From Bacteroidia bacterium (GTDB taxonomy: Bacteria; Bacteroidota; Bacteroidia; UKL13-3), in contig JAGVLJ010000024.1 of assembly GCA_020049855.1 (NCBI GenBank), positions 1-50,271 of the forward strand: 50,271 nucleotides of DNA. Reading direction: 5' to 3'. Shown in pieces: positions 14,800 to 21,020 of this stretch. The notes beneath the pieces were generated by a model. It did not search any database and had not been told where the DNA came from. It worked only from the letters and a program-made list of their open reading frames with translations. The translations under genes and the position numbers were made by a program. Every line of letters starts with the position of its first letter. Position 1 is the stretch's first letter.

Positions 14800-14844
14800 A
14801 TTGCAAAATTAATTATTTGGTTTATAGATAATTAATTTTGCAAT
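14800..14844. repeat. 17-bp perfect inverted repeat upstream of the pilin-like operon
   Basis: ATTGCAAAATTAATTAT (14800-14816) is matched exactly by its reverse complement at 14828-14844, with an 11-nt spacer. It ends 27 bp before the -33 box of the operon. The position suits an activator or repressor site; an RNA hairpin is less likely because it lies upstream of the promoter. Confidence 0.75.
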
Positions 14845-14871
14845 TATTTTTAATATTTTAGACAAATAATT

Positions 14872-14899
14872 TTGTTTTATTAAAAAATAGATACATTTG
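14872..14899 (+). promoter_or_regulatory. Promoter of the chaperone/usher-like operon
   Basis: A TTG (14872-14874) and an exact -7 box TACATTTG (14892-14899) are separated by 17 nt, in the reported range for Bacteroidota sigma-70 promoters. About 130 bp of very AT-rich DNA lie upstream. Transcription should start near 14905, just before the 39-codon ORF. Confidence 0.75.
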
Positions 14900-14918
14900 T
14901 ACCGGAACAAATGAAAAT

Positions 14919-15038
14919 ATGAACGATAAACTTAACCAACTGATTATTTCCATCACAAATTACATAGATGAAGTAATAAGGCTATTGATACCGGGACAAA
15001 AGATGAGTTACCAATTTTATAAACCTTTTAAAAATTAA
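14919..15038 (+). CDS. 39-residue leader ORF of the pilin operon
   Basis: An ATG-initiated frame of 39 codons (MNDKLNQLIISITNYIDEVI, then a basic C-terminal half) fills the space between the promoter at 14872-14899 and the pilin-like gene, ending only 4 bp before its ATG. It resembles an amphipathic helix with no signal peptide. It could be a real small protein or a leader peptide whose translation controls the downstream gene. I do not recognise it. Its exact fit between promoter and gene is the main support. Confidence 0.5.
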   Translation: MNDKLNQLIISITNYIDEVIRLLIPGQKMSYQFYKPFKN

Positions 15039-15042
15039 TGTT

Positions 15043-15813
15043 ATGAAGACACTAAAAAAATTATCTCTGGCTGCACTTTTCTTTTCGGCACTTCCGTCAT
15101 TCGCCCAATTGCAGGACGAGAAAAATGTTACCATCACTATGGATCTTCAACCAATTCTTCAGTTGAACATGACCACTGCAGATCAGGTGAATTTTGTATT
15201 TGACGATATTGCCAGCTACTATGGCGGGCTTATTCGCTATGGAGCTACCACCTTAAAGGTATCAGCATCTGTTACTTGGGACTTGTATGCAGTAGGAACC
15301 TCAACTAATGGGGCAAGCTGGGACCAACAGGTAAAATACGGAACAGCAGCTAATCCCAATGCCATTGGCGCACTTCCTTTATCTGCACTTGAATTACATC
15401 AAAGAGGGGCTAACAACTATGACGCGAACGCAACCGGAGCCCAAACCGATTACAGTGCTCAGTTCTCTCCAGCACAAACAACTGCGGTAGGAGTAAACAG
15501 TATTTACACTAACGCAAATCCATATATTGCACCTACAGCAGCCGATAAATATATTCAAGGTCATAAAGGGACAGTTGCTTCTCAGGACGGAGCACCCGGT
15601 GGAAGTTATTTAACTGCTACCACATCGGCAGGTAGCGGCAATATAAGCGACTACATGTTCATTATTGATTACCGCATACTGCCCGGTTTACCGGCAGTAT
15701 TTCCTAATGCCGGTGATAATGCAGGAACATCTCAATCACTCACAGCGGGTCAGTATGCACAACCGGGTGTGTATACTATGAATGTAAAATATGTATTACT
15801 CGAGGATCAATAG
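15043..15813 (+). CDS. Pilin-like major subunit candidate of a chaperone/usher-like system
   Basis: A 256-residue exported protein with a clear signal peptide (residues 1-21, cleavage after SFA). The mature protein has no cysteine and is rich in Ala, Thr, Gly, Asn and Tyr, as in fibre subunits. It shares two motifs with the second pilin-like protein of the cluster: VNFVFDDIASYYGGLIRYGA (from residue 49) and a C-terminal FIIDYRILPGLP followed by VYTMNVKYVLLEDQ. Ending on a hydrophobic beta strand at the extreme C-terminus recalls donor-strand pilins. It is first in the cluster and is followed by a strong terminator, suggesting it is made in excess. The pilin role is inferred from context and fold pattern, not from a recognised family. 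Confidence 0.65.
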   Translation: MKTLKKLSLAALFFSALPSFAQLQDEKNVTITMDLQPILQLNMTTADQVNFVFDDIASYYGGLIRYGATTLKVSASVTWDLYAVGTSTNGASWDQQVKYGTAANPNAIGALPLSALELHQRGANNYDANATGAQTDYSAQFSPAQTTAVGVNSIYTNANPYIAPTAADKYIQGHKGTVASQDGAPGGSYLTATTSAGSGNISDYMFIIDYRILPGLPAVFPNAGDNAGTSQSLTAGQYAQPGVYTMNVKYVLLEDQ

Positions 15814-15838
15814 GTAGATTGTTTTTTATATGCACAAG

Positions 15839-15876
15839 TGCGTAGTCGATCCGAAGGGATCGGCTGCGTATTTTTA
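15839..15876 (+). terminator. Terminator/attenuator between pilin-like gene and chaperone gene
   Basis: A 12-bp stem with two G-T pairs (CGTAGTCGATCC at 15841-15852 with GGATCGGCTGCG at 15857-15868) has a 4-nt GAAG loop. Two more pairs extend it, and TATTTTTATT follows. It lies 25 bp after the stop. Partial read-through would give much more first-pilin mRNA than chaperone and usher mRNA. Confidence 0.8.
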
Positions 15877-15952
15877 TTCGGGTAATGAAATAATTACAAT
15901 GTAGCACAGTTGCAACAATCAAACTAAGTTCTTAAGGTTACACATTGGGCAA

Positions 15953-16831
15953 ATGAAAAATAACAAACCAAATTTATTCTTATTCTTGTTTTTGTTTGGA
16001 ATTGCCGATTTGCTGAAGGCTCAGGTAATTTCAACGGGAGATAAAAATGCCGATACTATTACAGTAGTTGACGAAGGAGTTGCTGTGACCCCGTCAAGTA
16101 TTCGCTTGTTTCTACGTCCGGGTGAAACCATTATTAAAGAAATAAAAGTTACCAATAAAACAAAAAGGGTCTATTCTTTTAGTGCTGCCTTTAATGATTT
16201 TAATATGGGCGAAAACGGAAAACCTCAACAAATGGACAGCTCTTTTCGCAAGTTTTCCTTATCTAAATGGGCAGTGGCATCACCTATGTTTTTCGAATTG
16301 CAGCCAGGCCAGATGCAAAAAGTGCAACTTACTGTAACCATTCCTTCTGATGAGTCTGGGAAGGTAGCTGCTTGGACAATCATGAGTATTGATCAAGTAG
16401 CTAAAAGAGAACAGGTGGTAACCGCGAGCAGCGATGCTAAATCAGTTGCTCTTGGCGTAATTCCCAGTTTCGGTTTTGGGATCTATGTATATCAAAATCC
16501 GCCCGATGCCGGAGTTCCAAGGCTTGAAATTGACAAATTTGAAAAAACCACCGATGGTAAGGATAAGGAGAAACGATTATTGCTTCATTTAAAATCTGAA
16601 GGCAATGCTATAGGTTTTTGCCATTCGTATATTGAACTCACTAATATTTCAACTGGAGAAATAATCAAATTACCTGTTCGTCATTTCACCATATTGCCGG
16701 GTTTTGAACGCACCATCTATTTTAGTTTACCCACAAAAATTTCAAAAGGAAAATATTCCGCTATGGCAGTAATTGATTACGGCAGCAAAGAAGATATAAA
16801 GGCGGCCGAACTCGAATTGCTGATTGAATGA
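15953..16831 (+). CDS. PapD-like periplasmic fimbrial chaperone
   Basis: A 292-residue exported protein (signal residues ~1-24, ending LLKAQ). The first mature domain has the pattern of a pilus-chaperone Ig domain: SIRLFLRPGETIIKEIKVTN, then KFSLSKWAVASP, then FFELQPGQMQKVQLTVTIPS. This matches the pilus-assembly chaperone layout in which strands after PG(E/Q)xxxxxxVxN cap a subunit. The C-terminal part (~190-292) is a second beta domain with LLLHLKSEGNAIGFCHSYIE. Such chaperones hold pilin subunits in the periplasm and deliver them to an outer-membrane usher. It lies between two pilin-like genes and before the usher-like gene, which strongly supports the assignment. No clear promoter was found after the upstream terminator, so read-through is likely. 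Confidence 0.7.
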   Translation: MKNNKPNLFLFLFLFGIADLLKAQVISTGDKNADTITVVDEGVAVTPSSIRLFLRPGETIIKEIKVTNKTKRVYSFSAAFNDFNMGENGKPQQMDSSFRKFSLSKWAVASPMFFELQPGQMQKVQLTVTIPSDESGKVAAWTIMSIDQVAKREQVVTASSDAKSVALGVIPSFGFGIYVYQNPPDAGVPRLEIDKFEKTTDGKDKEKRLLLHLKSEGNAIGFCHSYIELTNISTGEIIKLPVRHFTILPGFERTIYFSLPTKISKGKYSAMAVIDYGSKEDIKAAELELLIE

Positions 16832-16858
16832 TGTAAATACAATTTGCTTGCACTAAAA

Positions 16859-17500
16859 ATGGGTATAAAAAATGCATATTTAATCCTATGCTGTGCAACA
16901 GTATTCTTAGCTGTTACCATTAATGTAAATGCACAATGCGGCCCACCTACAGCAAGCAATTGTAAAGCGATTCCTGCCAGCAATATGTTTATTGCAGGAA
17001 ACACTAACCTCGACTTTATTTTCGACTCGTTTAGTAAGTATACCAGTGGCATTACAATTAGTGGAGCCACGCAATTACGTCTTACTGTTTTGCCTAATAA
17101 TGCTTCCTGTAAATGGAAATTACGTGTGTATATTGACAACAACCCGTCAGCACCCACACCGCTAAATGAGTGGGAGACGCTGAATAGCTATGGTGGTTCA
17201 GGAAATACCCCGCTAATAGATTTAATGGAGGTGAGGATTTATAACGGATGCAATACTCCGATTAATAGCGGAATCTATCAAAATTTTACACCAGTAAATG
17301 GTTCTTTTATTGATATCATTAACGATATTGTCCTTAATCCGGCCGGTGCATGTATTGCCAACGTAAATGGTTCGGGAAGTTACCTCACAAATTATAAAGA
17401 ATATAGTTTTACCATCGATTATCGGTTGCACCCGGGTTTACAGTACAAAGCCGGGGCCTACCAGTTGACTTTACGATTTTGTTTGGTAGAGGATGTATAG
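16859..17500 (+). CDS. Second pilin-like protein, cysteine-rich (possible tip or minor subunit)
   Basis: A 213-residue exported protein starting at the ATG at 16859; an upstream TTG adds five residues but spoils nothing else, and the ATG fits the signal peptide (residues 1-25, ending NVNA|Q). It is a paralogue of the first pilin-like protein: LDFIFDSFSKYTSGITISGA aligns with that protein's motif, and the C-terminus (FTIDYRLHPGLQ, AYQLTLRFCLVEDV) matches end to end. Unlike the first it carries six cysteines in the mature part, suggesting disulfide-stabilised structure as in tip adhesins. It overlaps the usher-like gene by 8 bp, so the two are coupled. The tip role is inference. Confidence 0.6.
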   Translation: MGIKNAYLILCCATVFLAVTINVNAQCGPPTASNCKAIPASNMFIAGNTNLDFIFDSFSKYTSGITISGATQLRLTVLPNNASCKWKLRVYIDNNPSAPTPLNEWETLNSYGGSGNTPLIDLMEVRIYNGCNTPINSGIYQNFTPVNGSFIDIINDIVLNPAGACIANVNGSGSYLTNYKEYSFTIDYRLHPGLQYKAGAYQLTLRFCLVEDV

Positions 17501-20444
17501 CACCAATTTTATATTAAGTTTGATGGAGGAATCCAAAGGTGAAGCCTTCGTTTGCAAGCAATCTTTTGTCTTGTTCTTTGTCTTGTTCAGCTTAGTAAGT
17601 TCTGCTCAAAATTTAGAGCAACGGTTCATTGTTTTTCCCCAACAAAAGGTAATTCGAATGGAGGAGATAAATATTGTGAGCAATGTGGTACTTATCAAGA
17701 ATAATGCAAATACGGAGGTGAGGTTTTCGCTTGATGCCACCATGCCTAAAGGGTGGAAGCTTCTTAGTGCGAAAGCAGTTTATACCATTAATGGGAACGA
17801 TTCGCTTTTTGTGCCAGTGCGTATTATTCCGGCCGGGCCTCTTAAAGGAAATACCGAGTATATTATTGACCTTATTGCTTACACTGCAAATAAGGTAAGA
17901 TTGGCTTCCACCTCGTTCTCGATACTTGTAATTAAAAAAACAAACTGGTCATTGAGTATTGAACCTGCAACGAAAATTTACTTTCTCAATAATTCAACAA
18001 AAACCAATTTCACAGTTCGCTATTCGAATAACGGGGATGACGATGAACCAGTGCTGACCACATTTAAGCAAACCGATAAAAAAATTTCGATTACCGATAG
18101 TTCGGGTAATGTAATTGAAAATTACAAAGATATTTTTACGCTACGGTCACGACAGGATACTCAGGTAACCTTTAATATATCCCTTGTTGAGAATACCCAC
18201 AATATTAAACGTGTTGATTTGGATAATCACTTGCCAAATTCTACTGATGAAGAAAAGAAATTTTTACTATTTCTCCAATCATCTGAGGCAAATAGCAATG
18301 ACAATAACACTACATTTAGGAAAAGTGAGAGAATTGAATTTATTAAACTGCCGAACAGGAAAAAAATTAATCCTTATGCATCAGATGCCTTGCCTTTGGT
18401 AGTAGAAAATAATATTTTTAATGTTATGGGCATACAGCCTATTATGTACTTAAATCTTAGGGGCAATACACTGCTTGAAAATAATGCCAATGTGTTTTAT
18501 TTCGCTCAAACAAGCTACTCCAGTTATTTTGCAACGCCCGATTATGCGCGAAATATTGCCTATTACACCGGCTATTTTCAGCAAAGGGGAGATATACAGA
18601 TTGGTGATATGAGTGGATCGGGTACGATTGGTTTTCAGAGTTTCGGTCGCGGAATTAAAGGAAGTTATAATTTTACAAAGCGACACAATGCAGGAGGTTT
18701 TTTACTAAAGTCGCCAAGGTTATCAGACCCAAACGGAAGCGTATCGTACGGTGCTAATTACAGGTTTTCATTCCACCGTTCTGATTATGCATCTGTGCAG
18801 GTAAGCAGGTCTGAGAATTTATTGTATCAAACTTCAACTAATTTTGTAACCGCAACAACCAGAGTAAATCTCTTTAAAAACCATGGAATAACATTAGGTG
18901 GAGGGATAAGTACACGAGGCCGTGCTAAAGGGAATCTGAAAAAAAACGGAACTTATCTTAACCTTAACTATTCCGGATTATTTCTCCAAAACCGACTTTC
19001 TTCAGTATTTCGCTTAAGTAATTTATCAAAATCATTTGGTGCAAGCGGTTCAGGGCGTTTTTATATTTATCACCAAACAGGGTTTACTGTTTCACGAAAA
19101 TTAGTACTTATGATGCAAAATAATTATACTGCCATGCACACATCCGACAACTCCGGGTACAATTATTTTAACAATCAGCTATTTTTTAATATTAGGCAAC
19201 AGCAGGGTGTGGTTGTGCCAAGTGTTTTGTTCAACACTCAAAATACATTCGGATTGAGGCGACATTTAAAGGGAGTTGGCTTTGATTACAATTATTACCA
19301 TATACTATCGAACATTAAGGTGTCTGCTTCGCTCAGAATGGGTTTTAATAAACTGATTGATTATCGAAATGTCCCTTCATTTTTTTCTGCAAATGCGAAT
19401 TTACTTACTCAATTCAGAACCCTTAGTTTTACCATGCGTTATTTTTATGGACCAACGGTTGTTAGAAATGCGGATGATATTAGAAATATACGAAGATACC
19501 CGCAAACTTTTTTTACTTCGCTACAGCATCAAATCATCTTTAGAAAGGAATATTTTGTGTGGCAAAATAGCCTTAATTATGCGTACTATAATCAGTTTTA
19601 CAGTCACTCATTAGGGTATTTTCCCGAAGTATATCTGTTTGCTCAAAACGGATGGCGTTTCAGAATGGGCATTGGGGTTTCAATGAATATAAGTAATCCC
19701 AAAAAGGCATTGGAAATGCAAAATCCGGGGCAACTTCAGGGCAGCGATGAAATCAATACCAATATTGTTACTACTAATTTAAATGTTCAGCTTGGGGTAC
19801 GTAAACAATTTGGAATTCCAGTACCACGTAAATTTACTCATACTAGGTCTGTAACAATTACCTACCTATGTTTCATGGATTTAAATGGCAATAGGGTTAA
19901 GGATAAAACAGAACCGGAACTTGAAAATATTGTCATCAGAACAGGAGACGAAGAAATAATGACGGATTTAAACGGGCAGGCTGAATTAACTAATCTGGAA
20001 GCCGGACGTTATAAAATTGGTATAATCAATCTTAGCGATTCGAAAACATGGTTTCCGGTAGTAGCCGATAGCATTTTAATGGATCGTTCTAAAATCATTT
20101 TGATTCCCTTTGTAAAGGGAGCCAAAATTACCGGACAGATCTACATGCAACGCGAAAGGCATGCAGTAGATGAGGAAACAAGCCTTGACTTATCGCGAAT
20201 TATAGTATCAGCCTTAGACTCGATGGGAAATATATACCGTACGCTGACACGAATGGATGGTACCTTTGAGTTGTATGTTCCCAATGCCCGCTATACCCTT
20301 AATTTGGATGCCGGAGTTTGGGGCGATCAGTTTACGGTGGTCAACAATAATCTGATTATTGAGTTGAATTTGAAAACTGATAATACCTTTGTTTCCTTTC
20401 AGGTAGTTGAGCGTCAACGGAAATTACAGATTAAAAAATTCTGA
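17493..20444 (+). CDS. Usher-like outer-membrane beta-barrel protein
   Basis: A 983-residue exported protein. Three Met codons are possible (17493, 17523, and internal); the signal peptide is SFVLFFVLFSLVSSAQ near residues 25-40, and the ATG at 17523 gives a more usual length. After the signal come two Ig-like segments (~40-300: RFSLDATMPKGWKLLSAKAV, WSLSIEPATKIYFLNN). Residues ~305-780 alternate aromatic and polar residues with many Tyr, Asn and Ser, as in a large outer-membrane barrel. At ~785-845 is an SdrD_B-like domain (CFMDLNGNRVKDKTEPE, with a calcium-type D-x-N-G loop), then a carboxypeptidase-regulatory-like domain (~875-965). Classical ushers also have a barrel followed by two small beta domains. 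No PapC/FimD N-terminal motif was recognised, so this is a divergent usher-like protein by architecture and context. Confidence 0.6.
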   Translation: MYSTNFILSLMEESKGEAFVCKQSFVLFFVLFSLVSSAQNLEQRFIVFPQQKVIRMEEINIVSNVVLIKNNANTEVRFSLDATMPKGWKLLSAKAVYTINGNDSLFVPVRIIPAGPLKGNTEYIIDLIAYTANKVRLASTSFSILVIKKTNWSLSIEPATKIYFLNNSTKTNFTVRYSNNGDDDEPVLTTFKQTDKKISITDSSGNVIENYKDIFTLRSRQDTQVTFNISLVENTHNIKRVDLDNHLPNSTDEEKKFLLFLQSSEANSNDNNTTFRKSERIEFIKLPNRKKINPYASDALPLVVENNIFNVMGIQPIMYLNLRGNTLLENNANVFYFAQTSYSSYFATPDYARNIAYYTGYFQQRGDIQIGDMSGSGTIGFQSFGRGIKGSYNFTKRHNAGGFLLKSPRLSDPNGSVSYGANYRFSFHRSDYASVQVSRSENLLYQTSTNFVTATTRVNLFKNHGITLGGGISTRGRAKGNLKKNGTYLNLNYSGLFLQNRLSSVFRLSNLSKSFGASGSGRFYIYHQTGFTVSRKLVLMMQNNYTAMHTSDNSGYNYFNNQLFFNIRQQQGVVVPSVLFNTQNTFGLRRHLKGVGFDYNYYHILSNIKVSASLRMGFNKLIDYRNVPSFFSANANLLTQFRTLSFTMRYFYGPTVVRNADDIRNIRRYPQTFFTSLQHQIIFRKEYFVWQNSLNYAYYNQFYSHSLGYFPEVYLFAQNGWRFRMGIGVSMNISNPKKALEMQNPGQLQGSDEINTNIVTTNLNVQLGVRKQFGIPVPRKFTHTRSVTITYLCFMDLNGNRVKDKTEPELENIVIRTGDEEIMTDLNGQAELTNLEAGRYKIGIINLSDSKTWFPVVADSILMDRSKIILIPFVKGAKITGQIYMQRERHAVDEETSLDLSRIIVSALDSMGNIYRTLTRMDGTFELYVPNARYTLNLDAGVWGDQFTVVNNNLIIELNLKTDNTFVSFQVVERQRKLQIKKF

Positions 20445-20615: not shown

Positions 20616-21020
20616 ATGAAAATAGAACACTTATTTCTACTGCTTGCATTTCTTTGCCTTCAGAAGGCAGAGGGGCAATCAACCTGGCAAAACCTTGATA
20701 CGGTAAAAGCTCCAACAGTGTATGATCATGTGTATTCGGTGAAGCTGTATGGTGATACATTGGTAACTAGTTTTTTGTTTTTTATTAAAGATGAAGTGAA
20801 AAATCATTTTCATGATGAGCACAGCGAGCATATTTACGTGCTGGCTGGCACCGCGATGATGACGCTTGACGGGAAAACATTTTCGATTAAAAAAGGCGAT
20901 TTCATTTTTGTGCCAATGCAAAAAAGACATAGTGTAAAGGTTACCTCAGCCGTGCCACTCAAAGTAATTTCCATTCAAGCCCCATGGTTTGACGGGAAAG
21001 ACCGATTGGTTGTGAAGTAA
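20616..21020 (+). CDS. Exported cupin-domain protein
   Basis: A 134-residue protein with a signal peptide (residues 1-20, ending AEG|Q) and one cupin domain. Motif 1 is present as HFHDEHSEHIYVLAGTAMM, with the metal-binding His-x-His and Glu, and motif 2 as GDFIFVPMQKRHSV, with the third His. The metal site is therefore complete, compatible with a small metalloenzyme or binding protein in the periplasm; the substrate is unknown. It lies 171 bp after the usher-like gene. No terminator is visible between them, but the spacer makes a separate promoter more likely than membership of the pilus cluster. Confidence 0.8.
   Translation: MKIEHLFLLLAFLCLQKAEGQSTWQNLDTVKAPTVYDHVYSVKLYGDTLVTSFLFFIKDEVKNHFHDEHSEHIYVLAGTAMMTLDGKTFSIKKGDFIFVPMQKRHSVKVTSAVPLKVISIQAPWFDGKDRLVVK

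Follow-up and report, generated by a model that had tools for sequence, protein, structure and literature searches.

A probable divergent chaperone-usher-type locus of Bacteroidota encoding homologues of the TLP-1 and TLP-2 fibre subunits

Gene content and conservation of the locus

A stretch of 50,271 nt from a Bacteroidia bacterium (lineage UKL13-3, contig JAGVLJ010000024.1), here termed the window and to whose positions all coordinates refer, was found to carry four large open reading frames (ORFs), all on the + strand, between positions 15043 and 20444. Their products are two subunits (sub1 and sub2), a PapD-like chaperone and an outer-membrane protein (OMP), and the locus is examined here as a candidate fibre-assembly operon of the chaperone-usher type. 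The genes, with the evidence used for each, are as follows:

15043..15813, + strand: sub1, predicted major fibre subunit and homologue of TLP-1/TLP-2 (PDB sequence match, N-terminal motif in 33/33, alignment)
15953..16831, + strand: PapD-like periplasmic chaperone with two immunoglobulin (Ig)-like domains (hhalign against chaperones of E. coli K-12, alignment, relation to WxL-interacting proteins)
16859..17500, + strand: sub2, second subunit, Cys-containing, predicted tip or initiator (alignment, donor motif in 0/33, weak TLP match)
17493..20444, + strand: OMP of 983 aa, putative usher-equivalent (alignment, partial Pfam and PDB matches, strand scan, shared C-terminal module)
OMP residues: predicted Ig-like N-terminal part at ~40-290, barrel at ~291-790 and two C-terminal domains at 791-983

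Signal peptides were seen on all four products. For sub2, an ORF with a TTG start extends from 16844, but the ATG at 16859 is better backed by the orthologue in the closest relative, genome G047; the ATG of the OMP gene lies inside the end of sub2, giving an overlap of 8 nt. A sequence-only reading of this DNA had described a promoter followed by an exported protein, a chaperone, a second exported protein and an outer-membrane protein in this order on one strand, and the ORFs were confirmed in that order. Pfam and NCBIfam scans of the window proteins returned nothing above cut-off, with sub-threshold CarboxypepD_reg and SdrD_B matches near the C-terminus of the OMP. Genes for the OMP, the chaperone and sub1 are each single-copy in the source genome, in which no PF00577 usher was found.

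Complete cassettes numbered 29, spread over 13 families of Bacteroidota, a count that comprises the window, its home family, locus L076 and the loci opened after the TLP-2 query described below. Within the home family the OMP was identified in 16 of 64 genomes and the chaperone in 14, all of which fall inside those 16; the two genomes with an OMP but no chaperone have their loci on short contigs. Co-inheritance of the two genes is therefore strict and beyond chance. All four genes are adjacent in the home-family loci opened, usually in the order chaperone-sub1-sub2-OMP. The window and G047 carry sub1 first; G046 belongs to the same genus but has the usual order. Conservation of the gene order had been named as a test of the proposed system; the four-gene set was found to be kept across related genomes, with the position of sub1 varying.

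Comparison with G047 showed that sub1 is under the strongest constraint in the locus (97% identity; ratio of nonsynonymous to synonymous substitution, dN/dS, 0.018); the OMP gene reached 0.090 and neighbouring genes 0.027-0.108, although these ratios are rough because dS is near saturation. Pilins that vary antigenically usually show the opposite of such constraint. No relatives of the locus were found in the viral contigs searched, nor were there plasmid records for two distant relatives. The locus is a real, widespread and co-inherited fibre-assembly operon.

Fibre subunits and their chaperone

Comparison of the sub1 profile with PDB sequences revealed matches to 9ikk ('TLP-2', E 5.8e-59) and 9ikj ('TLP-1', E 5.1e-57), entries of 16 chains each, and the sub1 of the window alone matched TLP at E 6.9e-45 over residues 24-254, its full mature length, with 42% identity. 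The subunits had earlier been said to match no pilin family, which is true of Pfam and NCBIfam though not of PDB, and the case is now stronger because sub1 matches subunits of solved fibres. With TLP-2 as the query, 31 of the 395 genomes sampled from the class, belonging to 22 of 197 genera, were found to hold homologues of up to 50% identity. Twenty of these loci were opened: 15 were complete cassettes, 3 ended at contig ends and 2 held a stand-alone sub1. As the TLP-2 query returns the cassette, it independently links the TLP family with the operon. The stand-alone copies (L204:8557-9348 and L209:8937-9740) are extra genes without chaperone or OMP, both genomes carrying a cassette elsewhere.

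The TLP entries are presumably the pond-water fibres of the CryoSeek project, whose names they fit. That study reportedly described helical fibres, each Ig-like fold being completed by the N-terminal strand of a different protomer, and is said to have suggested that they are uncharacterised bacterial pili. A CryoSeek fibre report (PNAS 2024, doi 10.1073/pnas.2417046121) is among the references of PMC12689565. The TLP subunits share with sub1 an N-terminal strand (VTVTMDLQP in TLP-1/TLP-2) and a C-terminal zipper; the database holds the subunit only, whereas a chaperone, an OMP, sub2 and a host clade are added here.

The conserved N-terminal strand of sub1, VTITMDLQPILQL, lies at residues 29-41 and has an alternating core, VTITMDLQP. 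Such a strand was found in 33/33 sub1 sequences (29 by the strict pattern and 4 with conservative changes) and in 0/33 sub2 sequences. By this pattern sub1 carries the putative donor strand of a shaft subunit. Sub1 and sub2 are themselves homologous (mature-sequence E 1.6e-15), and sub2 matches TLP-2 weakly, from chain residue 16 onwards, past the donor strand. Both subunits end in an alternating hydrophobic zipper with a Gly at about -15 (66/66 sequences; 28/28 in the family set, with aromatics near -7 and -13). Pilins of E. coli K-12 place the Gly at -14 in 9/10 cases and have an aromatic at -2 in 8/10; a Gly at -14 was also present in 12/19 small pilins of more distant Bacteroidota, against 9/121 background ORFs. 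These termini are most simply read as those of a polymerising subunit in sub1 and, in sub2, of a tip subunit that would be able to accept but not to donate a strand.

When signal regions were removed, the chaperone family profile matched ten PapD-type chaperones of K-12 at an hhalign E of 4.6e-7 over 205 columns, with distant relatives of the window chaperone reaching 1.1e-7 and unrelated-domain controls giving 0.045-0.7. These pairwise E-values are uncalibrated, and the argument therefore rests on the contrast with the controls. Pfam PapD_N did not match the window chaperone itself. On this profile evidence the protein can be placed in the PapD family of periplasmic chaperones rather than among Ig-like proteins of other function, the outcome that would have spoken against the sequence-only reading. 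The best PDB match of the profile was EfmWxLIP1 (9i25, a WxL-interacting protein, WxLIP, of Enterococcus; E 1.3e-4), and PF06030 was matched by 13 of 21 family members. WxLIP has two Ig domains and is predicted to insert a strand that completes the fold of WxL (PMC10599100). In sequence the chaperone family sits between PapD and the Gram-positive WxLIP, a position that may point to common ancestry of the strand-complementing partners in the two types of envelope.

Outer-membrane protein and proposed assembly

Proteins of ~930 aa in other families are full-length relatives of the OMP family (hhalign 9e-63, 893 columns); they cluster with a related chaperone, one to five small pilins and, often, a tip-sized protein of 340-480 aa. 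An early hhalign link to ushers over the full length (~1e-9) was dropped because no signal was left after removal of the C-terminal domains. Without the C-terminal module the family gave nothing clearly above noise against ushers of the phylum or of K-12; the best value was 7e-4 over 27 columns in one comparison, with most between 0.004 and 0.2. The C-terminal module itself matched ushers of the phylum at 4e-8 to 3e-13 and those of K-12 at noise level. Against TonB receptors, BamA and LptD the OMP gave an hhalign E of 0.09 or worse and thus showed no similarity to them, which lends no support to the TonB-dependent or unrelated porin named earlier as a refuting outcome.

Approximately 24 amphipathic strands were identified in residues 291-790 with no 80-residue gap, a count that is weak evidence because the same crude scan gives 18 in FimD. 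The N-terminus of the OMP resembles the chaperone weakly and partly through the signal peptide; with that removed the E-value was 1.9e-3 for the window group and 1.9e-4 for distant relatives, which is suggestive only. Some OMPs reach 1140-1325 aa with C-terminal extensions, SPOR-like in L211:10403-14380 and L214:10418-14068 and perhaps also at the C-termini in L028-L031; a SPOR-like extension would tie the gate to peptidoglycan.

Because of its linkage, size and layout, the OMP is best interpreted as filling the role of an usher, and the locus is likely to be a divergent chaperone-usher-type pilus operon making TLP-1/TLP-2-like fibres by donor-strand exchange. Sub1 and sub2 would be exported to the periplasm as Ig-like folds short of one strand and be capped by the chaperone, which would lend a strand beside their hydrophobic C-terminal strand. 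The complexes would then dock on the OMP, its periplasmic domains serving as the assembly platform, where the N-terminal strand (VTITMDLQP) of an incoming sub1 would displace the chaperone strand in the subunit already in the chain. Sub2 would start the chain and end at the tip, sub1 would form the shaft, and the fibre would be extruded at the OMP. The locus shares with the classical, alternative and archaic chaperone-usher pathways a PapD-type chaperone, an OMP encoded in the operon, and subunits with an N-terminal donor-like strand and a C-terminal zipper, and its chaperone, subunit and OMP genes form one cluster.

Several results weigh against this interpretation. Slices of the usher N-terminal domain (NTD), plug and barrel matched the OMP at noise level, in keeping with the earlier remark that it has no recognisable PapC/FimD N-terminal motif; judged on these regions it does not belong to the PF00577 usher family, in which respect the locus differs from known pathways. 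The C-terminal module, which does link it to ushers, also matches NOMO2. The subunits of the locus have their Gly at -15 and not at -14, and the penultimate aromatic is absent from the C-termini of sub1 and sub2. For the window chaperone subfamily alone, the match to K-12 chaperones reached only 1.5e-4. AlphaFold2 models built from window and L017 sequences were unusable, with confidence scores (pLDDT) of 38 for chaperone plus sub2 (entered as one chain, with TGA read as W) and 27 for the OMP. The interpretation also leans on the donor-strand exchange reported for the TLP assemblies.

Possibly the gate represents a new type of usher. It is conceivable, if somewhat less than an even prospect, that the OMP is no diverged usher at all and represents an independent assembly platform, with a plug-less barrel, Ig-like domains in the periplasm where an usher has its NTD, and nothing but the C-terminal module in common with true ushers. 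If so, Bacteroidota would hold a second solution to donor-strand assembly, combining a PapD-type chaperone with a non-usher gate. An unlikely alternative makes the OMP a surface anchor or receptor for a TLP-like fibre that sub1 builds with help from the chaperone and that another machine exports across the outer membrane; similarity to ushers that is undetectable outside the C-terminal module would agree with this, as would the SPOR-like or extra C-terminal domains of some OMPs, which are unusual for ushers. However, the OMP is strictly co-inherited with the chaperone and always adjoins the subunit genes, its size and layout suit an usher, and no other OMP gene is a regular part of the cassette.

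The resemblance of the chaperone to EfmWxLIP1 and the PF06030 matches, together with the strand insertion predicted for WxLIP, could also be taken to mean that the product is a surface coat in which the 'chaperone' is a permanent partner of the subunits, as WxLIP is of WxL. This is very improbable: the subunits to which sub1 is homologous were deposited in assemblies of 16 chains, no membrane anchor can be seen in the chaperone, which matches those of the PapD type as well, and an OMP gene is always linked. The WxL/WxLIP clusters of Gram-positives share with the locus a two-Ig partner protein, but they have no outer membrane gate, anchor the partner in the membrane and form a surface coat and not a fibre.

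Flanking features and relation to known systems

Further elements were identified around sub1:

14871..14899, + strand: Bacteroidota-type promoter-like box (TTTG ... TACATTTG) upstream of sub1, kept in the G047 alignment
14919-15038, + strand: 39-codon ORF, probably not a separate gene
~15836..15873, + strand: hairpin with U-rich tail directly 3' of sub1, putative terminator or attenuator (RNA fold -27.9 kcal/mol, z -4.6)

The TTTG...TAnnTTTG arrangement conserved 5' of sub1 between the window and G047 is the promoter consensus of Bacteroidota. Overlooked earlier, the hairpin would cause sub1 transcripts to outnumber those of the genes that follow, which would suit the demand for a shaft subunit. 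The 39-codon ORF reported in the sequence-only reading is present but was rejected as a gene: a 1-nt deletion in G047 joins its frame to sub1 without a stop, so that it is probably no separate gene, and the other loci gave no match to it. A perfect 17-bp inverted repeat (ATTGCAAAATTAATTAT / ATAATTAATTTTGCAAT, 11-nt spacer, 14800-14844), which is not kept in G047, lies a short way upstream of the box.

In the window (20616-21020) as in G047 and G046, a small exported cupin-like ORF comes after the OMP gene, although G046 differs in its other flanks. In several family loci the OMP gene is followed by an M1-family peptidase-like protein (L020:527-3553, L024:7532-10597). The protein adjoining the cassette at L197:3282-4844 has four prolyl isomerase domains of the FKBP type, and similar ORFs, recognised by their ends, occur in L196, L198, L199 and L206.

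Type V (FimA/Mfa) fimbriae, likewise surface fibres of Bacteroidota, are built from lipoprotein subunits without chaperone or usher genes. The view that they do not look like this locus held up: the sub1 cleavage site has no lipobox, and library scans gave no fimbrillin match. Closer to the locus are clusters in Chlorobia-like and other lineages of the phylum (the lineage names are a guess), which share a related chaperone and the OMP C-terminal module but have DUF4402 pilins of their own and ushers related to those of E. coli (~1e-8). In L086, L130-L136 and L140, DUF4402 or DUF4402-like pilins were seen linked to a related chaperone and to an usher that is recognisable but falls short of the PF00577 cut-off. 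The DUF4402-linked loci are a second, also unannotated, chaperone-usher lineage of the phylum.

The phylum list given for archaic chaperone-usher systems in PMC4654587 does not include Bacteroidota, and a literature search, largely outside subscription papers and so leaving room for an earlier discovery of the operon, found no chaperone-usher system described in this phylum. The distinct chaperone-usher-like fibre system of Bacteroidota proposed from the sequence is supported, its usher being a functional assignment, and the locus very probably encodes a divergent chaperone-usher-type system making TLP-like pili. This extends assembly of the chaperone-usher type to a phylum missing from that list, by way of a gate that is invisible to the current PF00577 model. 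Fibre subunits so far known, as far as could be checked, from deposited structures alone can now be assigned a gene cluster, a bacterial clade and a probable route of assembly, and their maker and function therefore become testable. Given the number of genomes and genera with TLP-2 homologues, the TLP-like fibre may be common on the surface of environmental Bacteroidota.

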